DNA of 42,767 nt from Alphaproteobacteria bacterium (GCA_013298565.1 JAAFIC010000018.1:1-42767), one strand, 5' to 3'; numbered from the stretch's first letter, positions 19,395 to 34,554 are shown. Numbers and translations are program-made. The notes: generated by a model from the sequence alone, not told the origin.

Positions 19395-20939
19395 ATGCCG
19401 CCGCACCTCCGCTCTGTCATCGCGGGCCTATCGGCGGACAGGCTGCTGCTGTGCATTATTGTTCTGCTTTGGGGTATTGCTGCGTTTTTTCCGCCGCTGA
19501 ATGCCGATGCGGCGGCGATGTTGCGTTTCGCCGAACGGATGCTGGACGGTGAAGCGCTTTACCGCGACCTCATAGATTTCAACCCACCGATGGGCTATTG
19601 GCTCGATCTGCTGCCAGCGGGGTTAGCGAAAGCGGGGCTGGGGAGTGCGGTCTTCTGGTTTGTAGCGCTCTGCCTTTTTATCGTTGCGGGCGGGGCGCTG
19701 TTGGCGTTTCGGATCATCGCGCCGCTGCTCAACGATACTGAACGCCGCCTACTCGCCCTCGTGGGCGCGATCACGCTGCTCGTCCGTCCGAGCGAGTCCT
19801 TTGGCGAGCGCGAGCATTTGATGGTTGCTCTGATTTTGCCCTATGGGGCGCTGGCGATGCGGGCGCTGGCGGGGGGCGGTGAGGAAAGCCGCGCGCTGCG
19901 GATGTTTGCGGCGGCGATAGCCTTTATCGGTATTGCCCAAAAGCCGCAGTTCGCCCTTTTGGGCGCGGCGGTCGAGCTTTTGTTGCTGCTGCGCTTCGGC
20001 CCAAAACTCTGGCTAACGCGGTCAGAGCCTTGGCTGTTTTTAGGGCTTGGCGGCCTGTATGTTGGCGCGACTGTAGTGTTCTATCCTGCCTATTTCGCCG
20101 ATATGCTGCCGCTGGCCGCCGCGCATTACGATATTGTCGATCTCGATCAAGGCATCGCTATGATCATTGGCGTCGAACTGCCGCCGTTGTTGATCTGTAT
20201 AGCGTGTCTTGCGCCGTGGGCTTTAGGCAGCCGCGCCCGCCCTGTTGCCACCGTGCTCTGGTCGCTCACGGTTGGGGCCATTCTGGCGGGGGTGTTGCAG
20301 TTCAAAGATTGGAGTTATCATTTTCTTCCAGCGCGGGTTCTGCTGATTCTGCTGGCCTCTTATGGGCTTGCCGGCTTGCTGAGTCGCGGGAAAACCCCTC
20401 CCAGCGGGCGGATTTTGGCCCTATTGGCGATTGCCCTGATGGCGCTGGGGGGGCATCTCAGTCCGCCGTTCCGTCTGCAACTCGATTACCGCAAGAGTGA
20501 TGCGCGCCTCGTCGAAAATATGATCCGCGCCGAGGGTGGGGGCCGCCCCGTGCTCTGGCTCACCCAATATATTGATCCGACGGCCCCGGTATTGAACTAT
20601 ACCGGCAATCGGCTGGCGATGCCGTTCATGTCGCTGTGGCTGCTCCCCGCGCTTTACGATGGCGACATGCCAGGGGCCGATGGTCGGCTAAGTCTGCATC
20701 CGCCCGCAACCCGCCCCCCAGCCGAAACACTCTTGCTAGAGCGGGTTGCCGAGTCGGTTCAGCGCGAGAAACCGTCGCTCATTCTGGTTGAAGCCCCGCA
20801 AGACGAGGCTGCTTTCCGGCTTCGTCCGCTGGACTATCTGGAGTTTTTCAGCCAAGACCCGCGCTTCGCTGAGGAGTTTAGCCGCTATCGTTTACTCAAA
20901 CGCATCGGCACGCTCCGGGTGTTTAAGCGCCAGGACTAG
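19395..20939 (+). CDS. GT-C type membrane glycosyltransferase-like protein
   Basis: The 514-residue protein has about ten membrane helices and a soluble C-terminal tail of ~120 residues. The first loop, NADAAAMLRFAERMLDGEALYRDLIDFNPPM, has the acidic LYRDLxDxNPP pattern seen in lipid-linked-sugar (GT-C, GT39/GT83-like) transferases. It begins eight bases after the phosphohexomutase gene and so probably uses a lipid-carried sugar in envelope glycan assembly. The acceptor is unknown. Its TAG stop lies at the left tip of repeat copy B. Confidence 0.8.
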   Translation: MPPHLRSVIAGLSADRLLLCIIVLLWGIAAFFPPLNADAAAMLRFAERMLDGEALYRDLIDFNPPMGYWLDLLPAGLAKAGLGSAVFWFVALCLFIVAGGALLAFRIIAPLLNDTERRLLALVGAITLLVRPSESFGEREHLMVALILPYGALAMRALAGGGEESRALRMFAAAIAFIGIAQKPQFALLGAAVELLLLLRFGPKLWLTRSEPWLFLGLGGLYVGATVVFYPAYFADMLPLAAAHYDIVDLDQGIAMIIGVELPPLLICIACLAPWALGSRARPVATVLWSLTVGAILAGVLQFKDWSYHFLPARVLLILLASYGLAGLLSRGKTPPSGRILALLAIALMALGGHLSPPFRLQLDYRKSDARLVENMIRAEGGGRPVLWLTQYIDPTAPVLNYTGNRLAMPFMSLWLLPALYDGDMPGADGRLSLHPPATRPPAETLLLERVAESVQREKPSLILVEAPQDEAAFRLRPLDYLEFFSQDPRFAEEFSRYRLLKRIGTLRVFKRQD

Positions 20940-21134
20940 AGCTGCGCGCCTTAACTCTGGCGCGGCTCTATAAGCCGCATCAGGCGTGTTTGACACGCCA
21001 AGCGTGTCGGGTGAGGCGGCGGCCAAGGGCGCGGATGCGCCCGGCGATGCGCTTGGCGCGTCAAACGCACCGGGCGGCGAGGGCTAAGATAAAACTAGAG
21101 CGTCTTGCGTCAACCTTTACGCAAGACGCTCTAG
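20937..21134 (-). repeat. Dispersed hairpin repeat, copy B (full length, inverted)
   Basis: It is the inverse of copy A with few changes, bounded by CTAGAGC on the left and GCTCTAG on the right. The arms TAGAGCGTCTTGCG (21096-21109) and its complement (21120-21133) are perfect. Both flanking convergent genes take their stop codons from its tips: TAG at 20937-20939 and, on the minus strand, TAG at 21133-21131. Confidence 0.92.
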
Positions 21135-22881: not shown

Positions 22882-23050
22882 TAGAGCATCGTGCGTAAAG
22901 ATTGACGCAAGACGCTCTAGTTTTATCTTACCTCTCGCCGGGCGGGCGCGTCCGCGCCCTTGGCCGCCACCTCACCCGACACGCTTGGCGTGTCAAACAC
23001 GCCTGATGCGGCTTTTAGAACTGCGCCAGAGTTAAGGCGTGCAGCTCTAG
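22882..23050 (+). repeat. Dispersed hairpin repeat, copy C (internal deletion)
   Basis: It has the same orientation as copy A, with ends TAGAGC at 22882 and GCTCTAG at 23044-23050. The left arm is degenerate (TAGAGCATCGTGCG), and about 30 bases of the middle section (the GCGTTTGACGCGCCAAGCGC part) are missing. The GACACGC-TTG-GCGTGTC core and the right hairpin remain. Together with flanking sequence it fills the gap between the redoxin and MarR genes. Confidence 0.88.
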
Positions 23051-30526: not shown

Positions 30527-30561
30527 TGCTGCTTGAAAGGCTGTTTGGAAATTCGGTGGTT

Positions 30562-30643
30562 TAGAGCCGCGCGCCTTAACTCTGGCGCGGCTCTATAAGC
30601 CGCCTCAGGCGTGTTTGGCACGCCAAGCGTGTCGGGTGAGGCG
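30562..30643 (-). repeat. Dispersed hairpin repeat, copy D (truncated, inverted)
   Basis: It has the copy B orientation: TTAGAGCCGCGCGCC at the left, the right-hand hairpin, and a varied core (GTTTGGCACGCCAAGCGTGTC). It stops at GTGAGGCGG, so the second hairpin is missing. It lies between the clpA terminator and the small membrane protein gene. Confidence 0.85.
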
Positions 30644-30713
30644 GAACGAAGCGAGACTTTACGCCTGATTGGTAACAAGAAGGGGAGCACGTCAATGAAG
30701 TTCCGGCCTGCAA

Positions 30714-30911: not shown

Positions 30912-30988
30912 GGTGGATTGATGCCCTGCTCATTTTTCACTTATGTAGTAACAGAACTGTCTATATCAACCTCTTCTCAATTATAAAA

Positions 30989-31055
30989 TTACGCACAACT
31001 TGGAATATTTTGCAAGTTTTATTGCTTTTAATTTACGCATTAATTGTGCGTAAAT
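30989..31055. repeat. Iterated TTACGCA motifs at the end of the GTPase operon
   Basis: TTACGCACAA at 30989-30998 is the exact complement of TTGTGCGTAA at 31044-31053. A closer palindrome ATTTACGCA (31031-31039) and TGCGTAAAT (31047-31055) includes the stop codon of the last gene. It may be a leftward terminator, an operator or a mobile-element end. Confidence 0.45.
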
Positions 31056-31830
31056 TTATAGTCCCCCACACTTTTTCTAGCCCCTCTCTTGTGCGATTGC
31101 TTAAAAAAATAATTCTATGTTTATTTTCTCTTTGGTGGAGCATTTTCTGTATTCTATTTTGGAGCAACATGGGCGATGGCGTTTGTGAAAGTTGCGGTAA
31201 AAGTCGCTCCGATATATCTTTTGTGATTAATTTTATTTCGTCATTTCCTAAGGACTCAGAAAAATTACGGATAATAAAGAAGTGTGCACCACTTTTCTGT
31301 AGGCATTTCGCTATGTTTTCGTCAGACCCTCGAATTTTTCCGCTTATGACGAGGAATATTACATCGAATTCTGAGAATGGAAAGAAGTCTATAAATACGC
31401 TTGCTGGGTGATTGAGTGTGTCATATCCAGGAACATCAACAAAATCATAATTCTCATACCGCATCATGATGTCACAATATGGCCATTCTGACCAGTCTGT
31501 TGCATCAGTTTGAACGCCAATGTTCGGTTTTGGGTAGGATTTTCCTTGTGTTAAATTATGTATTAACGTCGATTTTCCTGCTCCTGGCTGTCCAAGAATG
31601 GCAACTTTCTTTCCATTTGACGCCGACAGTAAAATTTTTAAGCGCAGTATATTTTGTATCAATGTGACGTGCGGACTCCGAGGCTGCGGGGCAGCCTCGG
31701 AGTTCACGACGCCCTCATCAAGGGCGTCGTATATCTTTTTACCAATCAGGACGGCAGCGGGAATTAGTAACCACCACATGATTATAAATTCAACCCACGA
31801 TTCAGCGTTTCCTCCGCTAATTGATGACAT
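31033..31830 (-). CDS. Membrane-anchored P-loop GTPase, G4 motif lost (GTPase B)
   Basis: The 265-residue frame has one N-terminal membrane segment (FIIMWWLLIPAAVLIG, ~15-30), then a TRAFAC-type P-loop GQPGAGKSTL (80-89) and G3 DVPGYDT (132-138). The expected NKxD motif is replaced by RNFSES (~188). The GTPase A frame overlaps it by 49 bases; a second ATG at 31779, two bases after the GTPase A stop, would start just at the membrane helix (MWWLLIP) and may be the real start. No good ribosome site precedes either, which suggests coupled translation. The region is AT-rich. It pairs with GTPase A as an IRG-like duo; its biochemical role is unknown. Confidence 0.8.
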   Translation of the reverse strand: MSSISGGNAESWVEFIIMWWLLIPAAVLIGKKIYDALDEGVVNSEAAPQPRSPHVTLIQNILRLKILLSASNGKKVAILGQPGAGKSTLIHNLTQGKSYPKPNIGVQTDATDWSEWPYCDIMMRYENYDFVDVPGYDTLNHPASVFIDFFPFSEFDVIFLVISGKIRGSDENIAKCLQKSGAHFFIIRNFSESLGNDEIKLITKDISERLLPQLSQTPSPMLLQNRIQKMLHQRENKHRIIFLSNRTREGLEKVWGTINLRTINA

Positions 31831-32825
31831 TCATTTAGATAATAGTCTCCAGCTGTCTTGGTTATAGCAAATCCCAATCCAGCTGCAATAGCTTGACCAA
31901 CAAATGGTATGTACTTCGCAACACTCTTTAGCGCGACCCGTCCAATAAAACTTTTGAGCAAATATAAAATTCCTTCTTTTGCGGCGTATTTAACAATATT
32001 ATTTGATAGACTTGCCATTACTTGGATTTGGGAATTTTTAGCGACCGAGAGAGCTTCGTCATTGAGACCATACCCTGCACGGATTTCAGCGAACAATTTG
32101 TAGAGAATAGTGACATCAACAGCTATATCTGCACCTGGGATTGGGTTGATAGCGTTAGCCGCCGCCGCCGCTGATGCGATAGTAACGTACTTTTCACATG
32201 CCTCTCGCTTTTTCTCCAATTGTTCAACGGAATATGCTTTGGCGCTTCTGGACCACCGCTCCTGTTTGGCAGCACCTAAGTTTGCAGAAATCTCATCTTG
32301 CAGCGCATCTAGCCCATAATTGTCTCTGCAGCTGGTAAAAATGATTTTCACTGTATCGCCGACGCTTTTTGAAATGTCTGCAGCTTTTCGATCCTGTAAC
32401 TCTTCGAGAGAAACGCCATCTTCCCAAAGATCATCTCTCTTATTGACAACAAAAATGCAGACTTTCCCCCTCTGGATAACTTCTCGGAAAAATTCGGTGT
32501 CTGCTTGATGCAGTTTTCCCGAGGTTACACAGAGAAAAAGGTCAAAATCCATAATATTGAACTTATCGAAGTAAGTCTCTTTGGGAAATTTGACAGTCCC
32601 ATATCCAGGTAAATCGCTGAAGCGTATACCATTAATTTCGTAATCTGCTCGTTCGACGGTCTTATCGGTTTCTACACCGACAACGGCTAAATTTTTTCCG
32701 ACCATCTTATTGATTAAGGACGATTTTCCTGCTCCAGGCTGACCGAATAGTGCGACCGAAACGATCACTTTCATTTCTGCATCGAGTTTCTGTGTGATAT
32801 TCCGAATTTCTTCCGTAAGGGACAT
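31782..32825 (-). CDS. IRG/Era-like GTPase with DUF697-like tail (GTPase A)
   Basis: The 347-residue protein has a full GTP-binding set: P-loop GQPGAGKSS (28-36), switch Thr region (VETDKTVE), G3 DLPGYGT (71-77), G4 NKRDD (128-132) and G5-like TSC (164-166). The C-terminal half contains the DUF697 hallmark AINPIPGADIAVDVTILYKL and a hydrophobic SVAKYIPFVGQAIAAGLGFA segment likely to insert in or touch membrane. ATG 32825 follows GAGGAAAA. It is third in the operon after the WYL regulator and the zinc ribbon. Dynamin- or IRG-like GTPases occur in bacterial defence and membrane repair; which applies here is unknown. Confidence 0.88.
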   Translation of the reverse strand: MSLTEEIRNITQKLDAEMKVIVSVALFGQPGAGKSSLINKMVGKNLAVVGVETDKTVERADYEINGIRFSDLPGYGTVKFPKETYFDKFNIMDFDLFLCVTSGKLHQADTEFFREVIQRGKVCIFVVNKRDDLWEDGVSLEELQDRKAADISKSVGDTVKIIFTSCRDNYGLDALQDEISANLGAAKQERWSRSAKAYSVEQLEKKREACEKYVTIASAAAAANAINPIPGADIAVDVTILYKLFAEIRAGYGLNDEALSVAKNSQIQVMASLSNNIVKYAAKEGILYLLKSFIGRVALKSVAKYIPFVGQAIAAGLGFAITKTAGDYYLNECHQLAEETLNRGLNL

Positions 32826-32891
32826 TTAGTGTTTTCCTCTCGTTTCTGGGTAAGGTTAAGGTATTTGCCGTAGAGTCACGCATACATTTTC

Positions 32892-33032
32892 TTAGAGGCG
32901 GATCGTCTTCCGGCTTTTGCACTTAAGACAAATTGGCTTGAACCAATTTAGAAAGGCGGGGCGGTTATTTGAGAAAATCGTATCGCACTGCATGCACTGG
33001 TATCGATTCTGAAAAGGGATATGAGCTACCAT
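32892..33032 (-). CDS. 46-residue zinc-ribbon protein, coupled to the WYL gene
   Basis: The ATG at 33032 directly follows the TGA of the WYL regulator gene (TGAATG, no gap), and the frame ends with TAA at 32892. The product starts MVAHIPFQNRYQCMQCDTIF and carries Cys13-x2-Cys16 and, 18 residues on, Cys35-x2-Cys38 in ICLKCKS: a clean two-knuckle zinc ribbon with a basic tail. A GGGAGAATGA stretch serves as ribosome site. It lies 66 bases upstream of GTPase A in the same direction. Such ribbons bind nucleic acid or protein partners; no specific family is recognised. Confidence 0.72.
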   Translation of the reverse strand: MVAHIPFQNRYQCMQCDTIFSNNRPAFLNWFKPICLKCKSRKTIRL

Positions 33033-34013
33033 TCATTCTCCCATGATTGCAGGGCGTGCTGGATCCACCACTCTCGCCAGCCCCCCAAAGCTCCACACCC
33101 ACGCCTGCACTTCCCGCTCGCTTGTCGTTCTGAGGCGCAGAAGGAGGGAGCCGTCGGCGCGGTCGCTGATGTGTTGGTCGTCGCTCCAGGTGCGGTCGCG
33201 CACATAGTCGGCGGCGTCGGCATCAACTTCGATGAAAACGTCTTTAGGCTCGTGCCAGTACAGGCCGAACGTGCGGGCGTCGGTATCGGCGGCGTCGAAG
33301 GTGAAGAACTCGTGCAGCGGCGTTACTGTGCGGATGCGGTGGAGGAGGAAGGTGGAGGGGCGTTCGGCCAAGACCGAGCCATCTTCCAGCCGATAGCCTT
33401 GCACATACAGCGCACCGTTGAGCGCTATGATGACGCCGGGGGCAAAACGGTATTGCCGCTCCTCCTTACGGCCAAGGGCGCGATAGAGGAGGGTGCAGAT
33501 TTCCTTTTTCTCGATAGCGGTTCGCAGCACCTGTAAATTCGGCAGGTGCGGGGTGTAGTCGATTGTGCCTTTGGTGCGGAAGCCGATGGACTTGTGGGGT
33601 AGTTGCGCGGTGCCGTTAAGGCTGGTCGCTAACTCGCGCAGCGATCGCCCCAAACGCGCGTGGGTTTCCGGGGGCAGAAACGGTTCGGCGAGATCGCGGC
33701 AGAGCGCGAGGTAGCGCACTTCTTCTAACGACACGCCCAGGGTTTCCGCTGTTGTTGGCATGACCAGCTCGTAATACGTCCTATTTTTATGCTTACCGCG
33801 CTTGAGTTCCGCTGTTCTGCCGATGTGGCGTTCTATCACGTCAATAATATTGCTCGTCGTGGTTTCAGCAAAATTAAAACGTTCGGCAAGATCCTTCTTA
33901 AAATGCCGTCCAGGAGCCAAAACAAGGTATAGATATAGTTGCAGCACCTTATCCCGAGGCCCTGAATCCTTATCTTTTTTAGCGCCGCCGCGCCTGGTTT
34001 CACTGCTGGTCAC
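33033..34013 (-). CDS. WYL-domain transcription regulator
   Basis: The 326-residue protein has an N-terminal winged helix (VLQLYLYLVLAPGRHFKKDLAERFNFAETTTSNIIDVIERHIG) and a central WYL domain (TLLYRALGRKEERQYRFAPGVIIALNGALYVQGYRLEDG, where the WYL core reads LYVQGY), followed by a WCX-type tail. WYL regulators such as BrxR, CapW and PafBC bind nucleic-acid ligands and often repress phage-defence genes. The start is GTG 34013 with a weak AGGTTAGAG site. It heads the operon with the zinc ribbon and two GTPases. It is more GC-rich than the GTPases, hinting at a composite island. Confidence 0.88.
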   Translation of the reverse strand: MTSSETRRGGAKKDKDSGPRDKVLQLYLYLVLAPGRHFKKDLAERFNFAETTTSNIIDVIERHIGRTAELKRGKHKNRTYYELVMPTTAETLGVSLEEVRYLALCRDLAEPFLPPETHARLGRSLRELATSLNGTAQLPHKSIGFRTKGTIDYTPHLPNLQVLRTAIEKKEICTLLYRALGRKEERQYRFAPGVIIALNGALYVQGYRLEDGSVLAERPSTFLLHRIRTVTPLHEFFTFDAADTDARTFGLYWHEPKDVFIEVDADAADYVRDRTWSDDQHISDRADGSLLLRLRTTSEREVQAWVWSFGGLARVVDPARPAIMGE

Positions 34014-34093
34014 AATCTCTAACCTATCGTTGGGCTGCCCTTAAACGCGCACGCTTGAAGGCATGATGCTGATTCGGGTGGGTGTTTACAATA

Positions 34094-34109
34094 GGCTTAA
34101 CGGCTTAAC
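34094..34109. promoter_or_regulatory. Tandem GGCTTAAC repeat upstream of the WYL gene
   Basis: Two exact head-to-tail copies of GGCTTAAC lie 81-96 bases upstream of the WYL start, beside a TTGTAA that could be a -35 box (minus strand, with CATCAT 17 bases on). It is a candidate operator for autoregulation. Confidence 0.4.
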
Positions 34110-34164
34110 GTGTATCCCCAGGCGATCTTTTTGCCGTAGAATACAAGCGTAGGATGAAGCGGTT

Positions 34165-34554
34165 TCAATCCAGAAACCGCGCAATCTCGCGGGCGCGCTG
34201 GGCGGTCATGGTAAGAGCGCATCCTGCGGCACCAATCCGCGCGGCTTGGCCACCGTCGGGGTCGAGATAGAAGCTACAGTTCGCAGTACGGTATTGTAGC
34301 CACAGCCGTTGCGCCGCGCGCAGGCTTTTTTGGCGATTAGGGGTAAGTTGCCCCAGCACAGCTTGGTAGTTGCGGTTGAGCAGCTTATCCCACCGCCCCT
34401 CTTCCTCCGTCATGCAGTCGATCATGGGGAAGGTTGCACCTTCGGACTTGTCCATACAGCGACCATAGGCAGCGCTGTAGGCTGGCTCTTCAGCTAAGGC
34501 CGGGAGGGCGAGGGCCAAGAGGGCGAGAACAGGGAAGGCGAGCGCGCGGCGCAT
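34165..34554 (-). CDS. LprI-like (DUF1311) exported protein
   Basis: The 129-residue protein has a signal peptide (MRRALAFPVLALLALALPALA) and a DUF1311 core: CMDKSEG, IDCMTEEEGRWDKLLNRNYQAVLGQLTPNRQKSLRAAQRLWLQYRTANC and a closing GCALTMTAQRAREIARFL. Four cysteines suggest two periplasmic disulfides. Mycobacterial LprI inhibits lysozyme; most DUF1311 proteins are untested. It may be co-transcribed with the DUF805 gene 43 bases upstream. Confidence 0.85.
   Translation of the reverse strand: MRRALAFPVLALLALALPALAEEPAYSAAYGRCMDKSEGATFPMIDCMTEEEGRWDKLLNRNYQAVLGQLTPNRQKSLRAAQRLWLQYRTANCSFYLDPDGGQAARIGAAGCALTMTAQRAREIARFLD

Follow-up and report, generated by a model that had tools for sequence, protein, structure and literature searches.

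A WYL-associated pair of bacterial GTPases, one of them of the IRG type, as a candidate membrane-acting defence module

Mammalian immunity-related GTPases (IRGs) attack pathogen membranes, and four neighbouring genes in an alphaproteobacterial genome raise the question of whether GTPases of this type do comparable work in bacteria. The genes lie in a stretch of 42,767 nucleotides, referred to as the window throughout. An earlier note, made from the sequence alone, had described them as a compact leftward operon of a WYL regulator, a zinc ribbon and two IRG-like GTPases, and had proposed that they could form an undescribed defence or membrane-damage system. The reading favoured here, to which a probability of slightly below one half is assigned, is that the GTPases are a WYL-controlled, GTP-driven pair of inner-membrane effectors with the IRG fold, forming a two-gene module that has spread horizontally.

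All four frames are present in the window as open reading frames on the minus strand. The WYL-WCX regulator gene (33033-34013; 326 aa, GTG start) encodes WCX (1.4e-11) and WYL (1.1e-8) domains recognized by Pfam, with no N-terminal HTH detected. It is followed by a zinc-ribbon ORF (32892-33032; 46 aa, with a CxxC...CxxC arrangement), by the gene for GTPase A (31782-32825; 347 aa) and by that for GTPase B (31033-31779; 248 aa). The regulator and ribbon genes abut exactly, TGA against ATG with 0 nt between them, as had been described. The reported overlap of the two GTPase genes, in contrast, amounts to 49 nt with ATG 31830 only. Most homologues start B at the equivalent of an M-W-W sequence, 1-6 nt past the A stop; for this reason the start of B was moved from 31830 to 31779, which leaves a gap of 2 nt. 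Tight order thus holds for the WYL/ribbon and A/B junctions but not between ribbon and A, where the gap is 66 nt.

The contrast between AT-rich GTPase genes and the GC-rich gene clpA is real, with 42.5% GC in A and 40.8% in B versus 57.3% in clpA, and GC3 values of 0.39 for the GTPase genes versus 0.68. The WYL gene, however, has a host-like composition (58.2% GC, GC3 0.67), only its first ~300 nt being lower. As it resembles clpA while A and B are low, the low-GC part comprises the ribbon, A and B rather than the whole operon.

By profile comparison and predicted fold, GTPase A belongs to the IRG family as a bacterial representative. In a single-sequence Pfam search, which reports IIGP and MMR_HSR1 domains in A, the IIGP match (5.8e-18) covers residues 4-284; there is also partial similarity to DUF697. 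A profile of the A family, built from 49 A sequences and compared with PDB chains, matches IRGB10, Irgb6 and IIGP1 at about 1e-36 to 1e-30. The alignments run over residues 3-339 for IRGB10 (6e-36), 3-340 for Irgb6 and 6-290 for IIGP1, and 13 IRG chains score at or below 1e-20, the next family being Der at ~1e-17. An AlphaFold (AF2) model of A, computed from a 47-row alignment (pLDDT 87.2, pTM 0.85), retrieves IRGs as the first 37 chains in Foldseek. In VIA-align the best 18 entries are mammalian IRGs, aligned over 297-326 of the 347 residues with Z scores of 20.2-25.9, the highest being that for Irga6 (25.9). Scores then drop to YsxC, at 17.9 over 160 residues and the G domain only. The rmsd between A and the IRGs is 4-5.5 Å, so the arrangement of the two domains is not identical. 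Homology spans the G domain as well as the helical domain, and for A the IRG assignment is stronger than had been claimed.

The sequence motifs agree with this placement. G1, the switch threonine and the DLPGY form of G3 are present in A, with NKxD in most members; across the 49-row alignment the P-loop reads GQPGxGKSS, an N(K)xD motif is recognizable and the G4 asparagine is kept in 47. All 49 sequences carry DLPGYGT or DLPGYDT, in which a hydrophobic residue replaces the catalytic glutamine, a trait of IRGs that has been called not diagnostic (PMC1297648). Two putative transmembrane segments are described for IRGB10, at 284-302 and 370-387 (PMC7815755), and in the profile alignment these fall on A residues of about 215-237 and 304-330. 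Both stretches of A are conserved and hydrophobic, and they hold several of the most conserved residues beyond the G domain (A222, N224, N227, P228, G231 and D237 in the first; P307, G310, G326 and Y329 in the second). On this alignment, A may use the two segments on membranes.

The closest known counterparts of A are the mammalian IRGs (IRGB10, Irgb6/TGTP2, Irga6/IIGP1; PF05049), with which it shares the G and helical domains in sequence and fold, the DLPG-hydrophobic motif in place of the catalytic glutamine and, in matching positions of the alignment, the two hydrophobic segments of the helical domain. It differs from them in being bacterial, about 60 residues shorter, accompanied by an adjacent short G-domain partner and independent of interferon. 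Its G4 motif is canonical NKxD, whereas the aligned IRG chains have TKxD, and the A protein of the window lacks an N-terminal glycine for myristoylation. Bacterial IRG-like GTPases, chiefly cyanobacterial, were noted by Bekpen et al. in 2005 (PMC1297648), who could not establish a relationship to the IRGs outside the G domain. Compared with those proteins as they are described there, A likewise has a large hydrophobic residue at the Q61 position, but its match covers the helical domain too, by profile and by model. It thus bears on the relationship of bacterial IRG-like GTPases to vertebrate IRGs that Bekpen et al. left open.

GTPase B is a shorter protein, consisting of an N-terminal hydrophobic helix and a G domain with a degenerate G4 motif; Pfam again reports IIGP and MMR_HSR1. 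The P-loop and DxPG are present in all rows of a 21-row alignment of homologues, none of which has a canonical NKxD; the usual sequence is S-x-A-E, and that of the window is NFSE. In the AF2 model (pLDDT 86.4) the G domain lies behind a low-confidence helix at residues 2-21. Its nearest structural matches are EngB and the IRG G domains; B has no helical domain, and EngB and Der are matched at least as well as the G domains of IRGs. The hydrophobic N-terminus is found in most members from Pseudomonadota, Deinococcus and Neobacillus and is absent in several from Bacillota. GTPase genes in pairs, with a proposed action on membranes, are also known among bacterial dynamin-like proteins, in LeoABC and in a DLP pair (PMC6104087). 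Differences from these are that A and B have 347 and 248 residues, their matches to LeoA and LeoBC are confined to the G domain (34.7 and 32.2 bits against profiles of 559-601 residues, neither of them full-length), and IRG rather than dynamin is the best fold match.

How the two proteins might work can be outlined. B would sit at the inner membrane, where it would hold or recruit A through contact between G domains and keep it inactive. Upon infection or envelope damage, A would load GTP and assemble via its G domains, whereupon its helical domain would insert the two conserved hydrophobic segments into the membrane of the cell itself. Remodelling or permeabilisation of this membrane would then stop phage production. 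In this genome the WYL regulator probably acts as a repressor of the module or sets its timing, a role that BrxR and CapW have in their own operons (PMC9122601, PMC9122588).

That the two GTPases form a conserved unit is clear from a neighbourhood survey. A scan of genome contigs yielded 39 loci, to which plasmids add those of Azospirillum thermophilum and Deinococcus sp. QL22. A and B occur together at 21 of 42 loci, in Pseudomonadota, Bacillota and Deinococcus. A tandem of two A-type genes (A-A') is found at ten others, in Acidaminococcaceae and one Acholeplasmataceae bin, and A stands alone at 11, at least one of which (L018) is cut by a contig end. Where A is intact, both genes of a pair share a strand in every case (19/19), with 1-6 nt between them in 15 cases and an overlap in four. 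The distance matrices of A and B have a correlation of 0.83, a value reached in none of 5000 permutations, although shared vertical descent alone can explain it. Clustering the neighbours of 41 loci revealed no recurrent third gene near the pair. In a tree of A, the window sequence groups, with low support, with beta- and gammaproteobacterial sequences and not with the alphaproteobacterial Acidocella pair; together with the contrast in base composition, this placement points to horizontal transfer of the pair. Searches of phages and viral contigs gave no match, so that carriage by phage or prophage is unsupported.

A mobile two-gene unit could also be a toxin-antitoxin-like pair, with A as a membrane toxin and B as its inhibitor, serving to maintain an element without any sensing of phage. 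Adjacent genes of correlated divergence with a mobile look, two records of which are on large plasmids, would suit such an arrangement. It is nonetheless quite improbable, given that A occurs without B at the 11 solo loci and that Massilia soli (L017, 9926-11044) has kept an A gene broken by an in-frame stop next to a B gene that is intact.

The effector-pair reading further supposes control by a WYL protein, and here the link is looser than a fixed four-gene operon would demand. A WYL gene is no more than 5 kb from A in 4 of 29 genomes (L012, L020, L028 and L029), a small number set against an expectation of 0.17 (Poisson 3e-5) that derives from the WYL count of each genome under uniform gene placement, for a set of genomes apart from the window and the plasmids. 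The genome of Neobacillus jeddahensis has a single WYL gene, which shares the strand of A-B and precedes it at a distance of 113 nt. The earlier note would have given way had the pair never co-occurred with a WYL gene; instead, such genes are over-represented near it and, in this one distant genome, directly upstream. Most pairs, however, have no WYL gene within 5 kb. The WYL proteins near other pairs that were compared are only 20-24% identical to that of the window, and the association is therefore one that recurs, not an operon inherited whole. Together with the difference in composition between WYL and GTPase genes, this speaks against a fixed operon: the WYL gene is associated with the pair but not obligatory, a recurrent but exchangeable add-on. 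At the N. jeddahensis locus (L029, 12122-13757), a Beta_protein (PF14350) gene and a gene for a 191-aa protein lie downstream of WYL-A-B.

The same evidence bears on whether it is by chance that the WYL gene and the ribbon stand next to the GTPase pair, the low-GC A-B genes being a cargo that landed behind an unrelated regulator at a variable spot after clpA. The sharp change in composition would be expected on this account, as would the diversity of WYL proteins near other pairs and the many pairs that lack one within 5 kb. A same-genus genome offers no traceable shared operon, both of its contigs ending between clpA and an RraA-like gene. This explanation is nevertheless doubtful, for the genes are abutting and on one strand, WYL genes are enriched near A (4 versus 0.17) and the Neobacillus gene is directly upstream.

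The setting of a related regulator is also suggestive of a role in defence. The nearest relative of the window WYL (48% identity) is on an Azospirillum ramasamyi plasmid (NZ_CP029830.1), where it fronts candidate defence genes of the PDC-M09A/B type, with a PDC-S37 protein adjoining. The genes there (L110, 7995-13814) are, in order, WYL, PDC-M09B, PDC-M09A, an uncharacterised gene and a PD-(D/E)XK nuclease gene, a set that looks like a defence operon. This suggests, by analogy, that the WYL subfamily of the window may front exchangeable defence cargo, as has been reported for BrxR homologues (PMC9122601). Like BrxR and CapW (PMC9122601, PMC9122588), the window protein has WYL and WCX domains and is encoded upstream of a candidate defence module. 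It differs in having no significant sequence match to the solved structures of those regulators and in its cargo of a GTPase pair; no operator-like inverted repeat was found upstream, in 33990-34170. Among BrxR homologues, too, such an operator is not present in all (PMC9122601).

The zinc ribbon, by comparison, is incidental and outside the conserved module. Its Zn_ribbon_8 score is weak (19.2 bits, below the cut-off of 34.4), and the proposal that it is a component of the system was not sustained, no such gene being found beside other A-B pairs and no relatives on plasmids. The ribbons encoded near a solo A at L020 were considered as counterparts and rejected, as they look unrelated. The L020 locus comprises A, two small zinc ribbons flanking an uncharacterised gene, and RelE-like, PIN-type and WYL genes.

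Evidence for a role of the pair in defence comes from its neighbours. In Deinococcus sp. QL22, A-B is inside a BREX locus, in the order brxL, pglZ, hypothetical gene-A-B, DarT-like, N6-methylase, brxC, brxB and WYL. The Acidocella pair (L036) adjoins a type I restriction enzyme and PDC-S05, and single neighbours elsewhere are a DpdE/ZorD-like helicase (L027), a type IV-like restriction protein (L011) and an AriA-like ATPase (L026). Two further neighbours that match PADLOC models, CARF5 and a type I specificity subunit, were not assigned to a locus. Altogether, 114 genes beside A match 63 PADLOC models at 1e-40, through about six proteins (at least five), whereas 114 genes at arbitrary positions match 12, apparently all through one UvrD-type helicase; as these control positions were hand-chosen, on contigs of known length from mostly the same genomes, the enrichment is suggestive rather than a formal test. 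At most A-B loci no neighbour is recognisable as a defence gene, and some of the loci adjoin genes for permeases or sugar-binding proteins. The methyltransferase PF02384 was tried as a proxy for defence around the pairs and proved uninformative beyond the Acidocella contig. From its genomic context, then, a function in phage defence is plausible. The pair also appears undescribed as a defence system, as had been proposed: PADLOC-DB 2.0.0, with systems to 2023, contains no full-length match to A or B, only partial and weak ones. In the Deinococcus locus (L010, 12276-15496), the gene for the DarT-like ADP-ribosyltransferase is next to that for the BREX methyltransferase.

The main rival to a defence mechanism is membrane repair. 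The pair would then be an envelope-stress GTPase module like DynA or the Psp-linked YcjX/YcjF, patching the inner membrane rather than killing, with phage as one of several triggers. The partial similarity of A to DUF697 and the transport genes that adjoin several A-B loci lend themselves to this interpretation, and DynA is reported to provide both phage resistance in Bacillus subtilis and membrane surveillance (PMC8844932). Such maintenance is rather unlikely, however, for a family so rare and patchy, unlike housekeeping genes: it is found in 1 of 60 relatives and, with the IIGP model, in 2 of 289 from the class; for two further families the counts are 2 of 193 and 2 of 393. BREX and restriction neighbours also speak against it.

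The effector-pair reading can be extended to a more specific but tentative and doubtful proposal, in which a two-component bacterial IRG system, with A checked by a membrane-anchored partner lacking NKxD, would act as an infection-triggered, membrane-disrupting defence and be the counterpart, perhaps the ancestor or donor, of cell-autonomous IRG immunity in vertebrates. A search of the literature, mostly of openly accessible papers, found no study linking IRGs with anti-phage defence. If the pair does defend against phage, IRGs would join the immune families common to bacteria and animals, and A-B would offer a minimal system for how IRGs damage membranes.

Some smaller features of the DNA around the GTPase genes may be recorded. 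A repeat search located AT-rich inverted repeats, nested in one another, where the B gene has its 3' end (30982-31061), a possible end-of-element or termination feature. Within the AT-rich B gene, in the part encoding the N-terminal linker, two adjoining GC-rich hairpins (31675-31730) are possibly a palindromic in-frame insertion, and one of them also scores as terminator-like on the plus strand. Finally, an intergenic repeat of ~84 bp occurs in the window at 30560-30645, 654-747, 20937-21019 and 22967-23049; the genome as a whole has some 40 copies, complete or partial, at 82-100% identity, and a few related copies are present in one genome of the same genus.
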